From contig NZ_CP104850.1 of NCBI RefSeq assembly GCF_028864635.1, positions 2,300,001-2,364,000 on the forward strand: 64,000 bases of DNA, given 5' to 3'. Each line of letters opens with the position of its first letter. Position 1 is the stretch's first letter. The position numbers were made by a program, and so were the translations under genes. The notes below the pieces were generated by a model. It was not told the origin of the DNA and ran no database searches. It was given only the letters and a program-made list of their open reading frames with translations. This document shows positions 2,016 through 48,894 of the stretch, in pieces. The stretch is from Cloacibacterium sp. TD35 (lineage in GTDB: Bacteria; Bacteroidota; Bacteroidia; Flavobacteriales; Weeksellaceae).

Positions 2016-2220
2016 ATGGCAATTTTTGCAAATTTTCCATCGCAAAATCATTTTCAAAAATTTGCAAAACCAGGCTGTCTGTTGCAATTCCTCACGCCAA
2101 AGCTTACAAAAATACCACTTAATTTGCCCACGCTTGTTGCGGGATTTACACTTCCATCCTTATTGCAAAACTTCGTTACAAATTCACTATTTTTACCAAA
2201 AATTTAAGATTTTACCCAAA

Positions 2221-12954: not shown

Positions 12955-14277
12955 ATGAAGAAACCTTGGAGAAGAAATAATGACCAAAACTCATTATCAG
13001 AATCATTTGCTTCTGTTTCTATACCCACAAATGGTAGTTTTTGGAAAAAACTTTTTGCATTTGCAGGTCCAGGTTTGATGGTAGCTGTAGGTTATATGGA
13101 TCCTGGAAATTGGGCAACAGATATTGCAGGTGGTTCACAATTTGGCTATACATTATTATCCGTAATTCTTTTATCAAATATTTTTGCCATTATCCTTCAA
13201 CATTTATCTTTAAAACTAGGAATTGCAGCCGAAAGAGACTTGGCACAAGCTTGTAGAGACCATTTTTCGCCAAAGGTGAATTTCATATTATGGGTTCTAT
13301 GCGAAATTGCAATTATTGCATGTGATTTAGCAGAAGTTATCGGTTCGGCAATTGCCTTAAACTTATTATTTGGAATTCCATTACCTATTGGAATTTTGAT
13401 TACAGGAATAGATGTTTTACTTATTCTGATGCTTCAATCTAAAGGTTTCAGATGGCTCGAAAGTTTTGTTGCAGGGCTTATTTTCGTCATTTTTGCGTGC
13501 TTCTTATACGAAATCTTGGTAAGTCAACCAGAAATAATGCCTATTTTAAGCAGTTTAATTCCTCAGAAAGAAATTGTTTTTAATCCATCAATGCTGTACA
13601 TCGCCATTGGTATTTTAGGAGCAACTGTGATGCCGCATAATTTATATTTACATAGCAGCATCGTACAAACTAGAGCTTACCCCAGAACTTCAGAAGGGAA
13701 AAAAATGGCGATTAAATTCGCGACTATAGACAGTACTGTTTCTTTGCTTTTTGCTTTTTTTATCAATGCGGCAATTTTAATTGTTTCGGCGGCAACTTTC
13801 CACAATTCTGGGTACAAAGATGTAGCAGATATTCATGATGCTTACAAATTACTTTCACCTATTTTAGGAACCAGTTTAGCCAGTATTTTATTTGCGGTAG
13901 CCTTATTAGCTTCAGGACAAAACTCTACACTCACAGGAACATTAGCGGGGCAAATCGTGATGGAAGGCTTCTTAAACCTTAAACTAAAACCTTGGCTCAG
14001 AAGATTAATTACCAGACTTTTAGCAATAGTACCTGCATTTATTATCTCGCTCATTTATGGTGAAAAAGGAACTACCGATTTATTGGTTTTAAGCCAAGTT
14101 ATTCTTTCTATGCAACTCAGTTTTGCGGTAATTCCATTAGTCATGTTTACAAATGACAAACTAAAAATGGGAGAATTTGTGAATAAACCTGCTTTGAAAA
14201 TTCTTGCTTGGGTTATTTCCATCATCATCGTAATTCTAAATCTTTACTTACTGTATCAAACATTCACAGGAAAATAA
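12955..14277 (+). CDS. mntH: Nramp-family Mn2+/Fe2+ transporter
   Basis: This proton-coupled divalent metal importer sits in the inner membrane. The 440-residue protein has about 11 transmembrane segments. The TM1 metal-binding motif DPGN is in [16 protein letters not shown] (about residues 42-57), and the TM6 motif with the selective Met is in [19 protein letters not shown] (about 223-241), as in Mn/Fe-selective Nramps. The N-terminal 30 residues are polar and cytosolic. The upstream DtxR/MntR-like box supports repression when metal is plentiful. The gene ends before a REP-like element on the opposite strand. Confidence 0.95.
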
Positions 14278-14288
14278 TTTATAATTTT

Positions 14289-14378
14289 TAGAAGCCGAGA
14301 ACCTGCTTTCCGCTTTTACTCCTCGTTCCATTTCTACTCCCCAAACATACTGCGGGGTAACCGCTTCAATCAGGGCTA
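14289..14378 (-). repeat. REP-like palindromic element, copy 1
   Basis: Read on the minus strand, the core (14374 down to 14301, 74 bp) begins with CCTGATTGA and ends with AAAGCAGGT, so the outer CCTG/CAGG can pair. Inside is a CCCC...GGGG stem-loop. Copy 2 at 35682-35754 has the same two 9-base ends and a 73-bp core. It is locally GC-rich compared with its surroundings. No coding potential is seen. Confidence 0.65.
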
Positions 14379-14488
14379 AAAAAGAACTCTAATTAAAACT
14401 TATTTAAAATTGAAATTTTTCTGCCAATTTTTCCTAAACTGCTCTTTGGCAAAATCTTTGAAATATTGCAGTAGAAAATTCTAATGAA

Positions 14489-15028
14489 ATGAGCGAAAAC
14501 AAAGAACTACACGAAGAAAATTTAAATAAAGAAGGTCAAGAAAATCTACAAAACGAACAAAAAACTACAGAAAGTGTGACAGAACAACCTACTGCAGAAG
14601 AACTTTTGGCAGAAGAAAAAGACCGTTACATTCGTTTGTATGCAGAGTTCGAAAATTATAAAAAGAGAACCTTGAAAGAAAAAATGGAGTTTGCACAATA
14701 TGCAAATACCGAAATGATGATTGCTATGCTTTCTATCTTAGATGATTTTGAAAGAGCCATCAAAGAAATTGCAAAAAGCGGCAACGAATCAGACTTGAAA
14801 GGCGTAGAACTCATTTATCAAAAATTCAAAAACACATTATCAGACAAAGGTTTAAAAAATGTAGAAGTAAATGCTGGTGATGAGTTTAACGTAGATTTCC
14901 ATGAAGCAATTACTTCTATTCCTGCTCCATCTGAAGATTTAAAAGGAAAAATTGTAGATGTAGTAGAAACGGGTTATCAGTTACACGATAGAGTAATTAG
15001 ATTTGCAAAAGTAGTTACAGGAAATTAA
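14489..15028 (+). CDS. grpE: Nucleotide exchange factor GrpE
   Basis: GrpE releases ADP from DnaK in the Hsp70 cycle. The 179-residue protein has an acidic, disordered first 45 residues (ENKELHEENLNKEGQENL), then a long coiled coil (EEKDRYIRLYAEFENYKKRT) and a C-terminal beta domain with the conserved end DRVIRFAKVVTGN. dnaJ follows after a 97-base spacer on the same strand, so they form a chaperone unit. No CIRCE operator was found upstream. Confidence 0.95.
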   Translation: MSENKELHEENLNKEGQENLQNEQKTTESVTEQPTAEELLAEEKDRYIRLYAEFENYKKRTLKEKMEFAQYANTEMMIAMLSILDDFERAIKEIAKSGNESDLKGVELIYQKFKNTLSDKGLKNVEVNAGDEFNVDFHEAITSIPAPSEDLKGKIVDVVETGYQLHDRVIRFAKVVTGN

Positions 15029-34820: not shown

Positions 34821-35645
34821 ATGAAAAATTTCTTTCGCTTTCTGTTTATCATCAGTTGTAATTTTTTATGGAGTCAAGAAAGGAAAAGCACTGCGACAGA
34901 AAACGTGAAGATTATTTCTGAAAATTTCGACGTTCCTCAACTTAAAACCACACGAAGAATTTGGATTTATTTGCCTAAAGATTACGAAACTTCTCGTAAA
35001 AAATATGAAGTAATGTATCTTCAAGATGCCCAAAATCTTTTTGACGATGCTACTTCTTACGCTGGTGAATGGCAAGCAGATGAAATACTGAACAAAATTT
35101 TTGAAAAAACCGGAAAATCTGTAATTGTTGTAGGAATAGATAACGGTGGCGAAAAACGAATTGAAGAACTCTCTCCTTTCAAAAATGCAAAATACGGCGG
35201 TGGAAATGGCGAAAACTATGTAAAATTTATCGTGGAGACACTGAAACCTTACATTGATAAAAATTACAGAACAAAAACGAACAAAAAACACACTACGATT
35301 GGTGGAAGTTCACTCGGAGCGCTGATTTCTGTTTATGCCGCGGTGAAATATCCTGAAACTTTCGGGAAAGTGTTGGCTTTTTCTTCTGCTTTTTGGTTTA
35401 ATGCTGAAGATTTGAATGCATTTATTACCCATTCTAAAGTCAATTTAAAACATCAGAAATATTACTTTGTCCAAGGAAAACACGAAGATGAAGACATGGA
35501 AGCGCAAACCCAACGTGTCATTGAAAACCTGAAATCTAAAAACGTAAAATCTAAAAATATTTTCCTAAAAATAGACGAAGACGGAAAACACAACGAACTC
35601 TATTGGCGCAGAGAATTTGAAGGAGCAGTTTTGTGGTTGAAATAA
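34821..35645 (+). CDS. Exported esterase of the enterochelin esterase-like family
   Basis: This 274-residue alpha/beta hydrolase is of the putative esterase (EstD/Fes-like) group. It has a signal peptide (about 17 residues, FIISCNFLWSQ), oxyanion region YLQDAQNLFDDATS, and nucleophile elbow GGSSLGALIS (Ser near residue 163). YYFVQGKHEDED and the catalytic His in EDGKHNELYWRREF (about 258) complete the site. The substrate is unknown. It is co-directional with tyrA (six-base gap) and followed by a REP-like element. Confidence 0.86.
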   Translation: MKNFFRFLFIISCNFLWSQERKSTATENVKIISENFDVPQLKTTRRIWIYLPKDYETSRKKYEVMYLQDAQNLFDDATSYAGEWQADEILNKIFEKTGKSVIVVGIDNGGEKRIEELSPFKNAKYGGGNGENYVKFIVETLKPYIDKNYRTKTNKKHTTIGGSSLGALISVYAAVKYPETFGKVLAFSSAFWFNAEDLNAFITHSKVNLKHQKYYFVQGKHEDEDMEAQTQRVIENLKSKNVKSKNIFLKIDEDGKHNELYWRREFEGAVLWLK

Positions 35646-35681
35646 TTTATACAATTAAAAAAACTAAATGAAAATGCTAGT

Positions 35682-35790
35682 CCTGATTGAGCAATTTGTT
35701 TGAGCTCTTTTTGTTTTTTCTAAAAAAACAAAAAAGCGAGTTGCAAAAGCAGGTCTGAACGTGAAAAGAAGCAAGAAAACGTCTTGCTCC
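35682..35790 (+). repeat. REP-like palindromic element, copy 2
   Basis: The core, 35682-35754 (73 bp), starts CCTGATTGA and ends AAAGCAGGT, the same 9-base ends as copy 1 at 14301-14374 on the opposite strand. The middle forms a long hairpin from the CTTTTTGTTTTTT tract and its A-rich complement. A second hairpin (AGCAAGA...TCTTGCT, 35770-35788) lies between the core and the purE stop codon and may act as the purE terminator. Confidence 0.65.
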
Positions 35791-36290
35791 TAATCGTATG
35801 AATTTGGGTGTTCTTTTTTGATTTCTTCGATGGTAGAAAGTACCTTTTCTTTTAAACTTAATTGGTAAATTTCCAATTTTGTAGAAATTTCTTCGTCTGA
35901 ACTTCCTAAAATTTTAGCGGCTAAAATCCCAGCATTGGTAGCTCCGTTCAAAGCAACAGTCGCTACAGGAATTCCTGAAGGCATCTGCAAAATAGACAAT
36001 ACAGAATCCCAACCATCTATAGAATTAGACGACAAAATAGGTACGCCAATCACGGGCAAAGTAGTACAACTCGCCACCATTCCTGGTAAATGTGCAGCAC
36101 CTCCTGCTCCTGCAATAATGACTTTCACGCCTCTGTTTTTGGCAGATTTTGCAAAATCAAACATGCGTTCTGGTGTTCTGTGTGCAGAAACCACGGTAAG
36201 TTCGTAAGGAATTTCTAAAGATTTTAAAAAATCAGCGGCTTGTTGCATAATTGGCAAATCGCTCTGGCTGCCCATGATAATTGAAACCAT
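35790..36290 (-). CDS. purE: N5-carboxyaminoimidazole ribonucleotide mutase
   Basis: PurE moves the carboxyl group of N5-CAIR to give CAIR in purine synthesis. The 166-residue class I protein has IIMGSQSDLPIM (residues about 3-15), SAHRTPERMFDFA (about 40) and GAGGAAHLPGMVAS (about 68). Its functional partner purK lies 1 kb away on the same strand, separated by eamA. A minus-strand -7 TATCTTTG (36314-36321) lies 23 bases before the ATG, divergent from the eamA promoter. Confidence 0.96.
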   Translation of the reverse strand: MVSIIMGSQSDLPIMQQAADFLKSLEIPYELTVVSAHRTPERMFDFAKSAKNRGVKVIIAGAGGAAHLPGMVASCTTLPVIGVPILSSNSIDGWDSVLSILQMPSGIPVATVALNGATNAGILAAKILGSSDEEISTKLEIYQLSLKEKVLSTIEEIKKEHPNSYD

Positions 36291-48251: not shown

Positions 48252-48252
48252 T

Positions 48253-48894
48253 TTACCAGTTTATGGGTTTCTTGTTTTTAGAAATCAGATATTCATTAAT
48301 TTTAGAAAAAGGTCTGCTTCCGTAGAAACCTCTGTACACCGAAAACGGAGAAGGATGCGCCGACTGAATGATAAAATGCTTCGTTTCATCTATGAGCGAA
48401 GCTTTTTTTTGTGCAAAAGCGCCCCACAAAACAAAAACTACGTTTTCTTTCTTTTCGGAAATTTCTTTGATAATAAAATCTGTGAATTTTTCCCAGCCTA
48501 AATCTTTATGAGAATTCGGTTGATGCGCACGAACGGTAAGCGTAGCATTGAGCAATAAAACACCTTGTCTTGCCCAAAAATCGAGTTCATTACTGGTTTT
48601 TACAATTCCTAAATCGTCTTTGAGTTCTGTAAAAATATTCTTCAAAGAAGGTGGCGCAGAAACCTGATCAGAAACCGAAAAACATAAACCATTCGCCTGA
48701 AAATCATTATGATACGGATCTTGACCAATAATCACCACTTCTACCTCGTCAAAAGGAGTAAGTTCAATCGCTCTGAAAATTTGATTTTTCGGTGGGAAAC
48801 ATTTGGTGGTAGCATATTCATTTTTTACTTTTTGCCAAAGCTTCTCAAAATATTCTGTGTTTTTTATTGGGGCAAGAATTTCTGTCCAAGTCAT
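48253..48894 (-). CDS. ung: Uracil-DNA glycosylase
   Basis: Ung removes uracil from DNA to start base-excision repair. The 213-residue protein has the catalytic GQDPYHNDFQANGLCFSVS (Asp in the motif, about residues 62-80), LLLNATLTVRAHQPNSH (about 113-129), and the leucine-loop motif QSAHPSPFSVYRGFYGSRPFSK (about 176-197). The -7 TAAATTTG (minus, 48912-48919) lies 17 bases before the ATG and is divergent from mutS2. Confidence 0.96.
   Translation of the reverse strand: MTWTEILAPIKNTEYFEKLWQKVKNEYATTKCFPPKNQIFRAIELTPFDEVEVVIIGQDPYHNDFQANGLCFSVSDQVSAPPSLKNIFTELKDDLGIVKTSNELDFWARQGVLLLNATLTVRAHQPNSHKDLGWEKFTDFIIKEISEKKENVVFVLWGAFAQKKASLIDETKHFIIQSAHPSPFSVYRGFYGSRPFSKINEYLISKNKKPINW

Follow-up and report, generated by a model that had tools for sequence, protein, structure and literature searches.

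Flavo-1 hairpin repeats of a Cloacibacterium genome can differ in core class between related species at orthologous sites

Which kind of element keeps its two ends and has everything between them replaced? The question is raised by two stretches of the window, the 64,000-nt piece of DNA analysed here, which lie in opposite orientation (14374-14301 on the minus and 35682-35754 on the plus strand) and share the ends CCTGATTGA...AAAGCAGGT. An earlier note on this DNA had pointed out the shared ends, a nearly equal core length and an unrelated middle, and these observations were confirmed: the interval from CCTG to CAGG measures 73 nt in copy 1 and 72 nt in copy 2, and the two cores are unrelated. 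Both elements are real, but they reach further than that note had drawn them, as judged by the covariance model described below (Table 1).

The pair of ends was compared with chance. The pattern CCTGATTG-N30-60-AGCAGG was found twice in the window and not at all in 100 shuffles, and CCTGATTGA-N40-60-AAAGCAGG likewise had two matches in the window and none in 100 first-order Markov windows. A single 9-mer with one mismatch allowed was not above chance (13 occurrences in the window, chance mean 16), so only the end pair is informative. In its strict form the end pair occurs just twice, as copies 1 and 2, in the single contig of 2.6 Mb to which the window belongs (hereafter the window genome; relatives carry other G numbers). 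By itself this result would have suggested a chance pair, and the family emerges only once variation in the ends is permitted.

By alignment to covariance models, copies 1 and 2 are divergent members of the Flavo-1 family (Rfam RF01705). An Rfam scan of the whole window at curated gathering thresholds gave no match, and it was relaxed scans of short stretches that revealed Flavo-1. With a gathering cut-off of 42 bits, both copies score below it (copy 1 at 40.0 bits, E 2e-7; copy 2 at 25.8 bits, E 9.4e-4 in a 161-nt search), and in both the model positions 1-76 of 76 (consensus UAGCCCYGAUUG...AAAGCRGG) are aligned end to end. In a sister species (G056) the counterpart of the copy 2 site reaches 71.8 bits, and three further copies score 50-57 bits; in a relaxed scan of ten element loci, all ten were matched at E ≤ 0.07 and four of them lay above the cut-off. 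The whole-genome search of the window genome with RF01705 gave 11 matches, six of them above 42 bits; copy 1 was among the 11 and copy 2 was missing from the list. Sub-cut-off matches were also obtained in five of 14 unrelated control genomes. The window elements share the collar, the structure, the strand and the Bacteroidetes host with Flavo-1, and differ from the family as filed in that their cores belong to other classes (B and C) and score under the cut-off. Flavo-1 was presented in a computational survey as a structured RNA candidate of Bacteroidetes that is not cis-regulatory (Weinberg et al. 2010, PMC2864571), whereas the comparisons below point to an exchangeable DNA hairpin.

Table 1. 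Flavo-1 elements in the window, associated features and flanking genes.
Feature	Position	Strand	Description
Flavo-1 element copy 1	14288..14380	(-)	core class B: GTTACCCCGC...GAGGAGTA; outer arm TTTAGC...GGCTTCTAA
Flavo-1 element copy 2	35676..35766	(+)	core class C: TTTGAGCTC...GCGAGT
Small second hairpin GCAAGA/TCTTGC, 3' of copy 2	35771..35787	(+)	read from sequence and folds
Possible third, degraded Flavo-1-like copy (weak)	2064..2171	(-)	RF01705 27 bits, E 0.0017 genome-wide, under cut-off 42
Element-less site	48252..48254	(.)	Flavo-1 element between the orthologous convergent genes in G039, G056 and G070
Nramp-type metal transporter, flanking gene	12955..14277	(+)	PF01566, E 8.4e-136
grpE, flanking gene	14489..15028	(+)	PF01025, E 6e-36
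Putative esterase, flanking gene	34821..35645	(+)	PF00756, E 2.3e-35
AIR carboxylase (purE-type), flanking gene	35790..36290	(-)	PF00731, E 1.6e-65

Copy 1 starts 10 nt past the Nramp stop codon and precedes grpE. Copy 2 is followed by the small second hairpin, which is kept in G039 and less so in G056 and G070, and then by GCTCCTAA, which at its end overlaps the AIR carboxylase stop codon. Intrinsic terminators were considered and rejected, as by eye no U-run follows either window copy on either strand. The weak third candidate is absent from the match list of our own covariance model.

Members of the Flavo-1 family can fold into one long imperfect hairpin, in which A·G/G·A mismatches are conserved and other pairs covary. 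A collar, typically CCYGATTG on the 5' side and AAAGCRGG on the 3' side and bearing conserved A·G and G·A mismatches, encloses one of at least three core classes (A, B and C) with a variable tip, and outside the collar lies an arm that is particular to the site. The stem is ordered CCTG/CAGG, A·G, TT/AA, G·A, C-G, A·G, GC/GC, G·A, and onward. By free RNA folding the hairpin is exceptional in copy 2 (z = -2.77) and unexceptional in copy 1 (z = 0.42); the structure common to the family is an imperfect stem whose conserved mismatches earn it a poor score in ordinary folding. The tips of four loci (L064, L304, L305 and L292) carry a TCGACTTCGCTCAGAATGACA-like repeat in either orientation.

Covariation was assessed in an alignment of 20 rows, namely the two window copies and 18 elements taken from 20 element-looking sequences that were chosen among the matches listed for the strict pattern; two from G040 with atypical flanks were left out. 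With the structure drawn by us from these same 20 sequences and their ends fixed by the search pattern, 88.9% of the paired cells were filled by pairs, compared with 79.5% in column shuffles and 40-51% when the partners were slid by 1-3 columns. Two-sided changes numbered 46 against 16 in the shuffles, and seven inner pairs had changed on both sides in at least four rows. Further pair types did not exceed the shuffles (16 vs. 17.9). The outer pairs are invariant in this set because its rows were chosen by their ends; in a wider set they vary, and CCTG/CAGG, CCCG/CGGG and CCAG/CTGG all occur. Among 131 class A arms, kept if at least six of ten positions were Watson-Crick and with orthologous sites counted separately, the third collar pair was T-A in 92, C-G in 30, A-T in five, G-C in one and not Watson-Crick in three. 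The A·G mismatch was present in all 131 of these arms and the G·A mismatch in 128, numbers that are partly fixed by the selection pattern. The covariance model built from the 20 rows scores copy 1 at 73 bits (E 2.0e-19) and copy 2 at 39.7 bits (E 9.3e-9), each copy being one of its own training rows.

The earlier note had proposed a genome search for further copies, and about 16 were found in the window genome once the ends were allowed to vary: our covariance model gave 13 matches at E ≤ 1, nine of them below 1e-6, the RF01705 model added two places (one of them weak) and a DNA query one more. With our model, six other genomes of the genus have 30-33 matches each at E ≤ 0.01. Across 197 genomes of the family, in which 22 candidates were scored per genome so that the per-genome counts are lower bounds, 145 had a covariance-model match at E ≤ 1e-6. 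The strict end pattern occurred in 137 of the 197, with many of the matches listed visibly unrelated and often coding-like. The exact 27-base start of class A was found in 79 stretches of named genomes, with hosts including Chryseobacterium, Kaistella, Epilithonimonas, Tenacibaculum, Leeuwenhoekiella, Flavobacterium and one Pedobacter. As for carriage by phages or plasmids, a search of viral contigs with one exact class A pattern gave no match. The window genome has the fewest elements among the seven genus genomes (13 vs. 30-33 model matches), and it has no Y1_Tnp match at E ≤ 0.01.

The main result came from the comparison of orthologous sites within the genus. Altogether 95 element loci were grouped by the similarity of their flanks, comprising 13 from the window genome (G000), the matches listed of three single-contig genomes and some of those of three more, and core classes were assigned by eye and with simple patterns, class B and some others by eye. 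Of 23 site groups with at least two loci, six differ in core class. In the remaining 17 groups no class change was seen, and these include the site of copy 1, which is of class B by eye in all five genomes, i.e., the window genome and the four others in which it has an orthologue. At L055, three classes occupy one site: C in G000 and G039, A in G056 and G070, and B in G010 and G089. L061 has class C in G000 and class A in five other genomes; L057 has A in G000 and G039 and C in G056 and G070, while L059, which is copy 2 of the window, has C in G000 and G039 and A in G056 and G070. At L056 the class is C in G000 and B in G039 and G070. Finally, L065 has an unclassified core in G000 and G056 and a class A core in G070, and there the ends have changed too.

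At five of the six discordant sites both flanks match at 86-99%, with the match of the left flank at L061 stopping 39 nt before the element; at the sixth, copy 2, the match extends past about 12 nt on the right side alone. The comparison of G000 with G039 at L056 illustrates the exchange: the 400 nt bordering the element on either side agree at 95.5% and 98.0%, the element itself has 14 and 23 identical nt at its two ends, and the cores are wholly different (C vs. B). At L055 and L056 the element is identical on its 5' side as far as GATTG and on its 3' side from GGAAAGC onward, with differences only between these motifs; at other sites there are differences outside the collar too. Each site has outer arms of its own that stay the same across classes (for example ...CAGGATTAGCTCC at L055 and ...CGGGAATAGCTTC at L056). 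This favours a change of core within a frame already in place, and makes it less likely that the discordant sites arose from different elements that inserted there independently. Tandem copies with differential loss were also considered as the source of the class changes, and no adjacent tandem pair was noticed among the 95 loci. The genome comparisons show that the hairpin core at a fixed site can change class between related species while the collar, the outer arm and the flanks are kept. In the accessible text of the literature found on Flavo-1, core exchange is not described.

Two of the exchanges, at L056 and L061, appear to fall on the branch of the window genome when G039, with 96% identity as compared with 80-92%, is taken as its sister. 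As the window genome has no Y1 match, exchanges on its branch suggest that a Y1 enzyme is not needed, unless it was lost afterwards. This bears on the REP/RAYT-like character that the earlier note had given to the elements, of which the description stands (a dispersed repeat with conserved ends, a variable hairpin and more copies) and the assignment is not supported by the searches made for a Y1 gene. The RAYT gene was sought in the window genome with PF01797 (Y1_Tnp), which had 0 matches at E ≤ 0.01. Around 79 Y1_Tnp loci of relatives (30 high-scoring, 19 with wider flanks and 30 from sixteen chosen genomes, one place being in two of these sets and some genes being split over two matches), a search within 1.5 kb gave two matches and no more, at E 0.33 and 0.34, and we take both as chance; a REPtron should show an element beside most genes. 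Among the 19 loci with wider flanks there was one with an element (E 0.001), at a distance of 2.7 kb.

Elements and Y1_Tnp are correlated in their presence over the 197 genomes (122 with both, 23 with elements only, 18 with Y1 only and 34 with neither), with an odds ratio of 10 and a Fisher p of 8e-11, uncorrected for relatedness. We read this correlation as shared phylogeny, and a relation in trans may also contribute. Among the 145 element-bearing genomes, the 23 without Y1_Tnp at E ≤ 1e-5 include six that have 17-22 copies among the matches listed. By eye, the foot of the elements is TAGC, GCGC or similar, not GTAG/GTGG. Canonical REPs have a GTAG/GTGG foot, and because subclass 2.6 of Bacteroidetes is also described without it (PMC6006769), the missing foot is a weak point against a RAYT. 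A YIxNQ-type motif was present in all 33 Y1 proteins found by a motif scan of the first 50 loci, and a YIHxNP-type motif in 11 of the 16 proteins printed from weaker Y1 matches; going by the table in PMC6006769, these motifs suggest subclasses 1.1 or 1.2 and subclass 2.6, respectively.

A REP/RAYT-type element, with copies moved by a Y1 (HUH) transposase that perhaps belongs to the Bacteroidetes RAYT subclass 2.6, would agree with the dispersed intergenic hairpins, with the correlation and with the 2.6-type motif in those 11 proteins. The subclass itself is reported as found mostly in Bacteroidetes, with repeats that lack the GTAG foot and with RAYT genes flanked by atypical secondary structures (PMC6006769). 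Like REP, REPIN and BIME sequences mobilised with a RAYT, the elements are short intergenic hairpin repeats of mosaic composition that occur in many copies; unlike them, they lack a GTAG foot, no linked Y1 transposase was found for them, and their core is replaced inside a kept frame. With no Y1 gene in the window genome, no REPtron among the 79 loci and at least 17 copies in each of six Y1-free genomes, we rejected REP/RAYT membership and regard mobilisation of this type as highly improbable. In one relative, G190, fifteen Y1_Tnp matches were obtained, many of them equal in score, presumably from an active IS200-type element.

Integron attC sites and IS200/IS605 ends are hairpins as well, conserved at their ends, variable in the middle and interrupted by bases that are mismatched or unpaired. 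Flavo-1 resembles them in all of these respects but differs in its end motifs, and no linked recombinase is known for it. The recurrent replacement, with three classes at L055, could come from some dedicated recombinase that exchanges the apical module hairpin to hairpin at the collar, in the manner of an integron cassette or of the single-strand exchange of IS200-type elements, and the confinement of the differences at L055 and L056 to the stretch between GATTG and GGAAAGC would suit this. On the other hand, no linked gene is known, the breakpoints are resolved only to the conserved collar, too coarsely to show a fixed cut, and differences extend outside it at other sites, and we consider a dedicated recombinase very unlikely. 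A related and quite unlikely idea is that of a resident DNA hairpin frame in which the class A, B and C apical modules are mobile cassettes that would move in trans, cut at GATTG/AAAGC by a single-strand recombinase or by a host hairpin-processing pathway.

The orientation of the elements relative to their neighbours was scored with gene context from simple open-frame calls. At 36 representative sites of the genus, both neighbours run opposite to the Rfam strand in 24 cases and along it in five, the rest being convergent (three), divergent (two) or one-sided (two). The right-hand neighbour has its 3' end toward the element at 28 genus sites, and in 14 of these the stop codon is within 20 nt. 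Among 58 class A sites of other genomes, a set in which orthologous sites recur and from which 13 contig-edge sites and nine without a recognised right end were left out, the neighbours are opposite in 22, along in 22, divergent in 13 and convergent in one; hence no general orientation is claimed.

The strand bias in the genus, together with the compensatory changes, is what a true RNA family would give, that is, a transcribed small RNA or an untranslated-region element that folds as a purine-mismatch hairpin. Ribonucleotide reductase is among the genes that have a copy about 85 nt upstream, and the purine mismatches on the Rfam strand are tolerable in RNA. Wobble pairs may point the same way: at four inner positions, chiefly the 9th and 14th, 49 were counted in the Rfam sense and 26 in the antisense. 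Against an RNA family stand the absence of a strand preference in the wider set and the wholesale replacement of cores at fixed sites, which is odd for a sequence-specific RNA. Furthermore, the published transcriptome of F. psychrophilum gives neither a consistent sense nor consistent transcription, as its Flavo-1 matches are reported as sense or antisense alike and many of them as outside transcribed regions (PMC9723704). Overall, we find an RNA family unlikely.

We favour, at a probability of roughly 0.55, the reading that Flavo-1 is a DNA-level repeat in which template switching or conversion between copies exchanges the core. Any explanation has to account for the joint changes of the two arms almost without intermediates, for a tip that occurs in both orientations and for cores that are replaced in a kept frame. 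Flavo-1 would act as a quasi-palindrome at the level of DNA and not as an independent small RNA. The hairpin may extrude, or stall the replication fork, upon which the nascent strand could switch template. A switch within the hairpin would keep the two arms complementary, whereas a switch to another copy through the shared collar would swap the core, and a dedicated transposase would not be needed. If selection is involved, its target would be the hairpin close to the ends of genes, which could serve, for instance, to stabilise the messenger or to mark a boundary. Template switching at quasi-palindromes is reported to homogenise the arms of inverted repeats and to invert spacers (PMC8604942), and our reading is modelled on this knowledge, with the copy-to-copy step as our own extrapolation. 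Quasi-palindrome correction likewise produces complementary arms through joint changes, as well as a tip in both orientations, as at L064 and L304. It explains the changes within one hairpin, but a core of another class needs a second copy as the template.

Several findings speak against the DNA-repeat reading. One is the strand bias in the genus (24 vs. 5), as an RNA or a role at gene 3' ends would give, although the wider set is even (22 vs. 22). The greater number of wobble pairs in the Rfam sense is another. A third is that no donor copy was found, among the matches listed, for the core with which donors were sought. This core comes from another genus, in which 60 genomes were searched and the region upstream of ribonucleotide reductase was fetched from 30 loci, six of which contain an element. 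The extended frame is the same in all six, and the core is of class A in three and of class C in the other three. In their coding region, G226 (class C) and G236 (class A) are 94.7% identical, a case from a second genus that speaks for core exchange. The class C cores of G226 and G234 are 98% identical and their genes 88.7%, so class C looks older at this site and G236 and G203 appear to have changed. This identity also indicates that some cores are strongly conserved, which is unexpected for a purely passive repeat. The sole donor search used the G226 core, which may be the older state at its site; it gave no second full-length copy in its own genome among the matches listed, where at most about 48 nt were covered elsewhere, and all full-length matches at 94% or above in that genus lie at the same site.

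Flavo-1 is currently listed as a small RNA without known function. If cores exchange at fixed sites, the entry would be better read as a DNA repeat and its compensatory changes would have another cause. The sites would also document, in nature, how hairpin cores are exchanged; with their frames known and the events open to dating, they could be used to test template switching and gene conversion in bacteria.

Presence and absence of the whole element were compared as well. At the site of copy 1, the order is Nramp gene, element, grpE in G000, G056 and G070; Nramp gene, second gene, element, grpE in G089 and G010; and Nramp gene, second gene, grpE without an element in G039 and G080. From this arrangement in the relatives, the element is probably old at its site and was lost in one branch. 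The second gene between Nramp and grpE, which G089, G010, G039 and G080 have, is missing at 14278-14488 of the window and in G056 and G070. At the element-less site of the window, about 160 nt are absent at 48254 in G000 as compared with the three element-bearing relatives. A MITE with target-site duplication would leave clean filled and empty sites with a duplicated target. Genomes without an element were seen at two sites (G039 and G080 at copy 1, G000 at 48254) and none of them is precisely empty, so that precise excision or insertion was rejected. Lastly, a compound form was observed in six loci of the genus relatives (L296, L303, L306, L309, L305 and L340). It consists of TTTTGCGTGAG or a similar sequence, the Flavo-1 hairpin, a second hairpin and CACGCC(C)AAAA; the second stem varies from copy to copy yet is complementary by eye, and the whole resembles a three-way junction.
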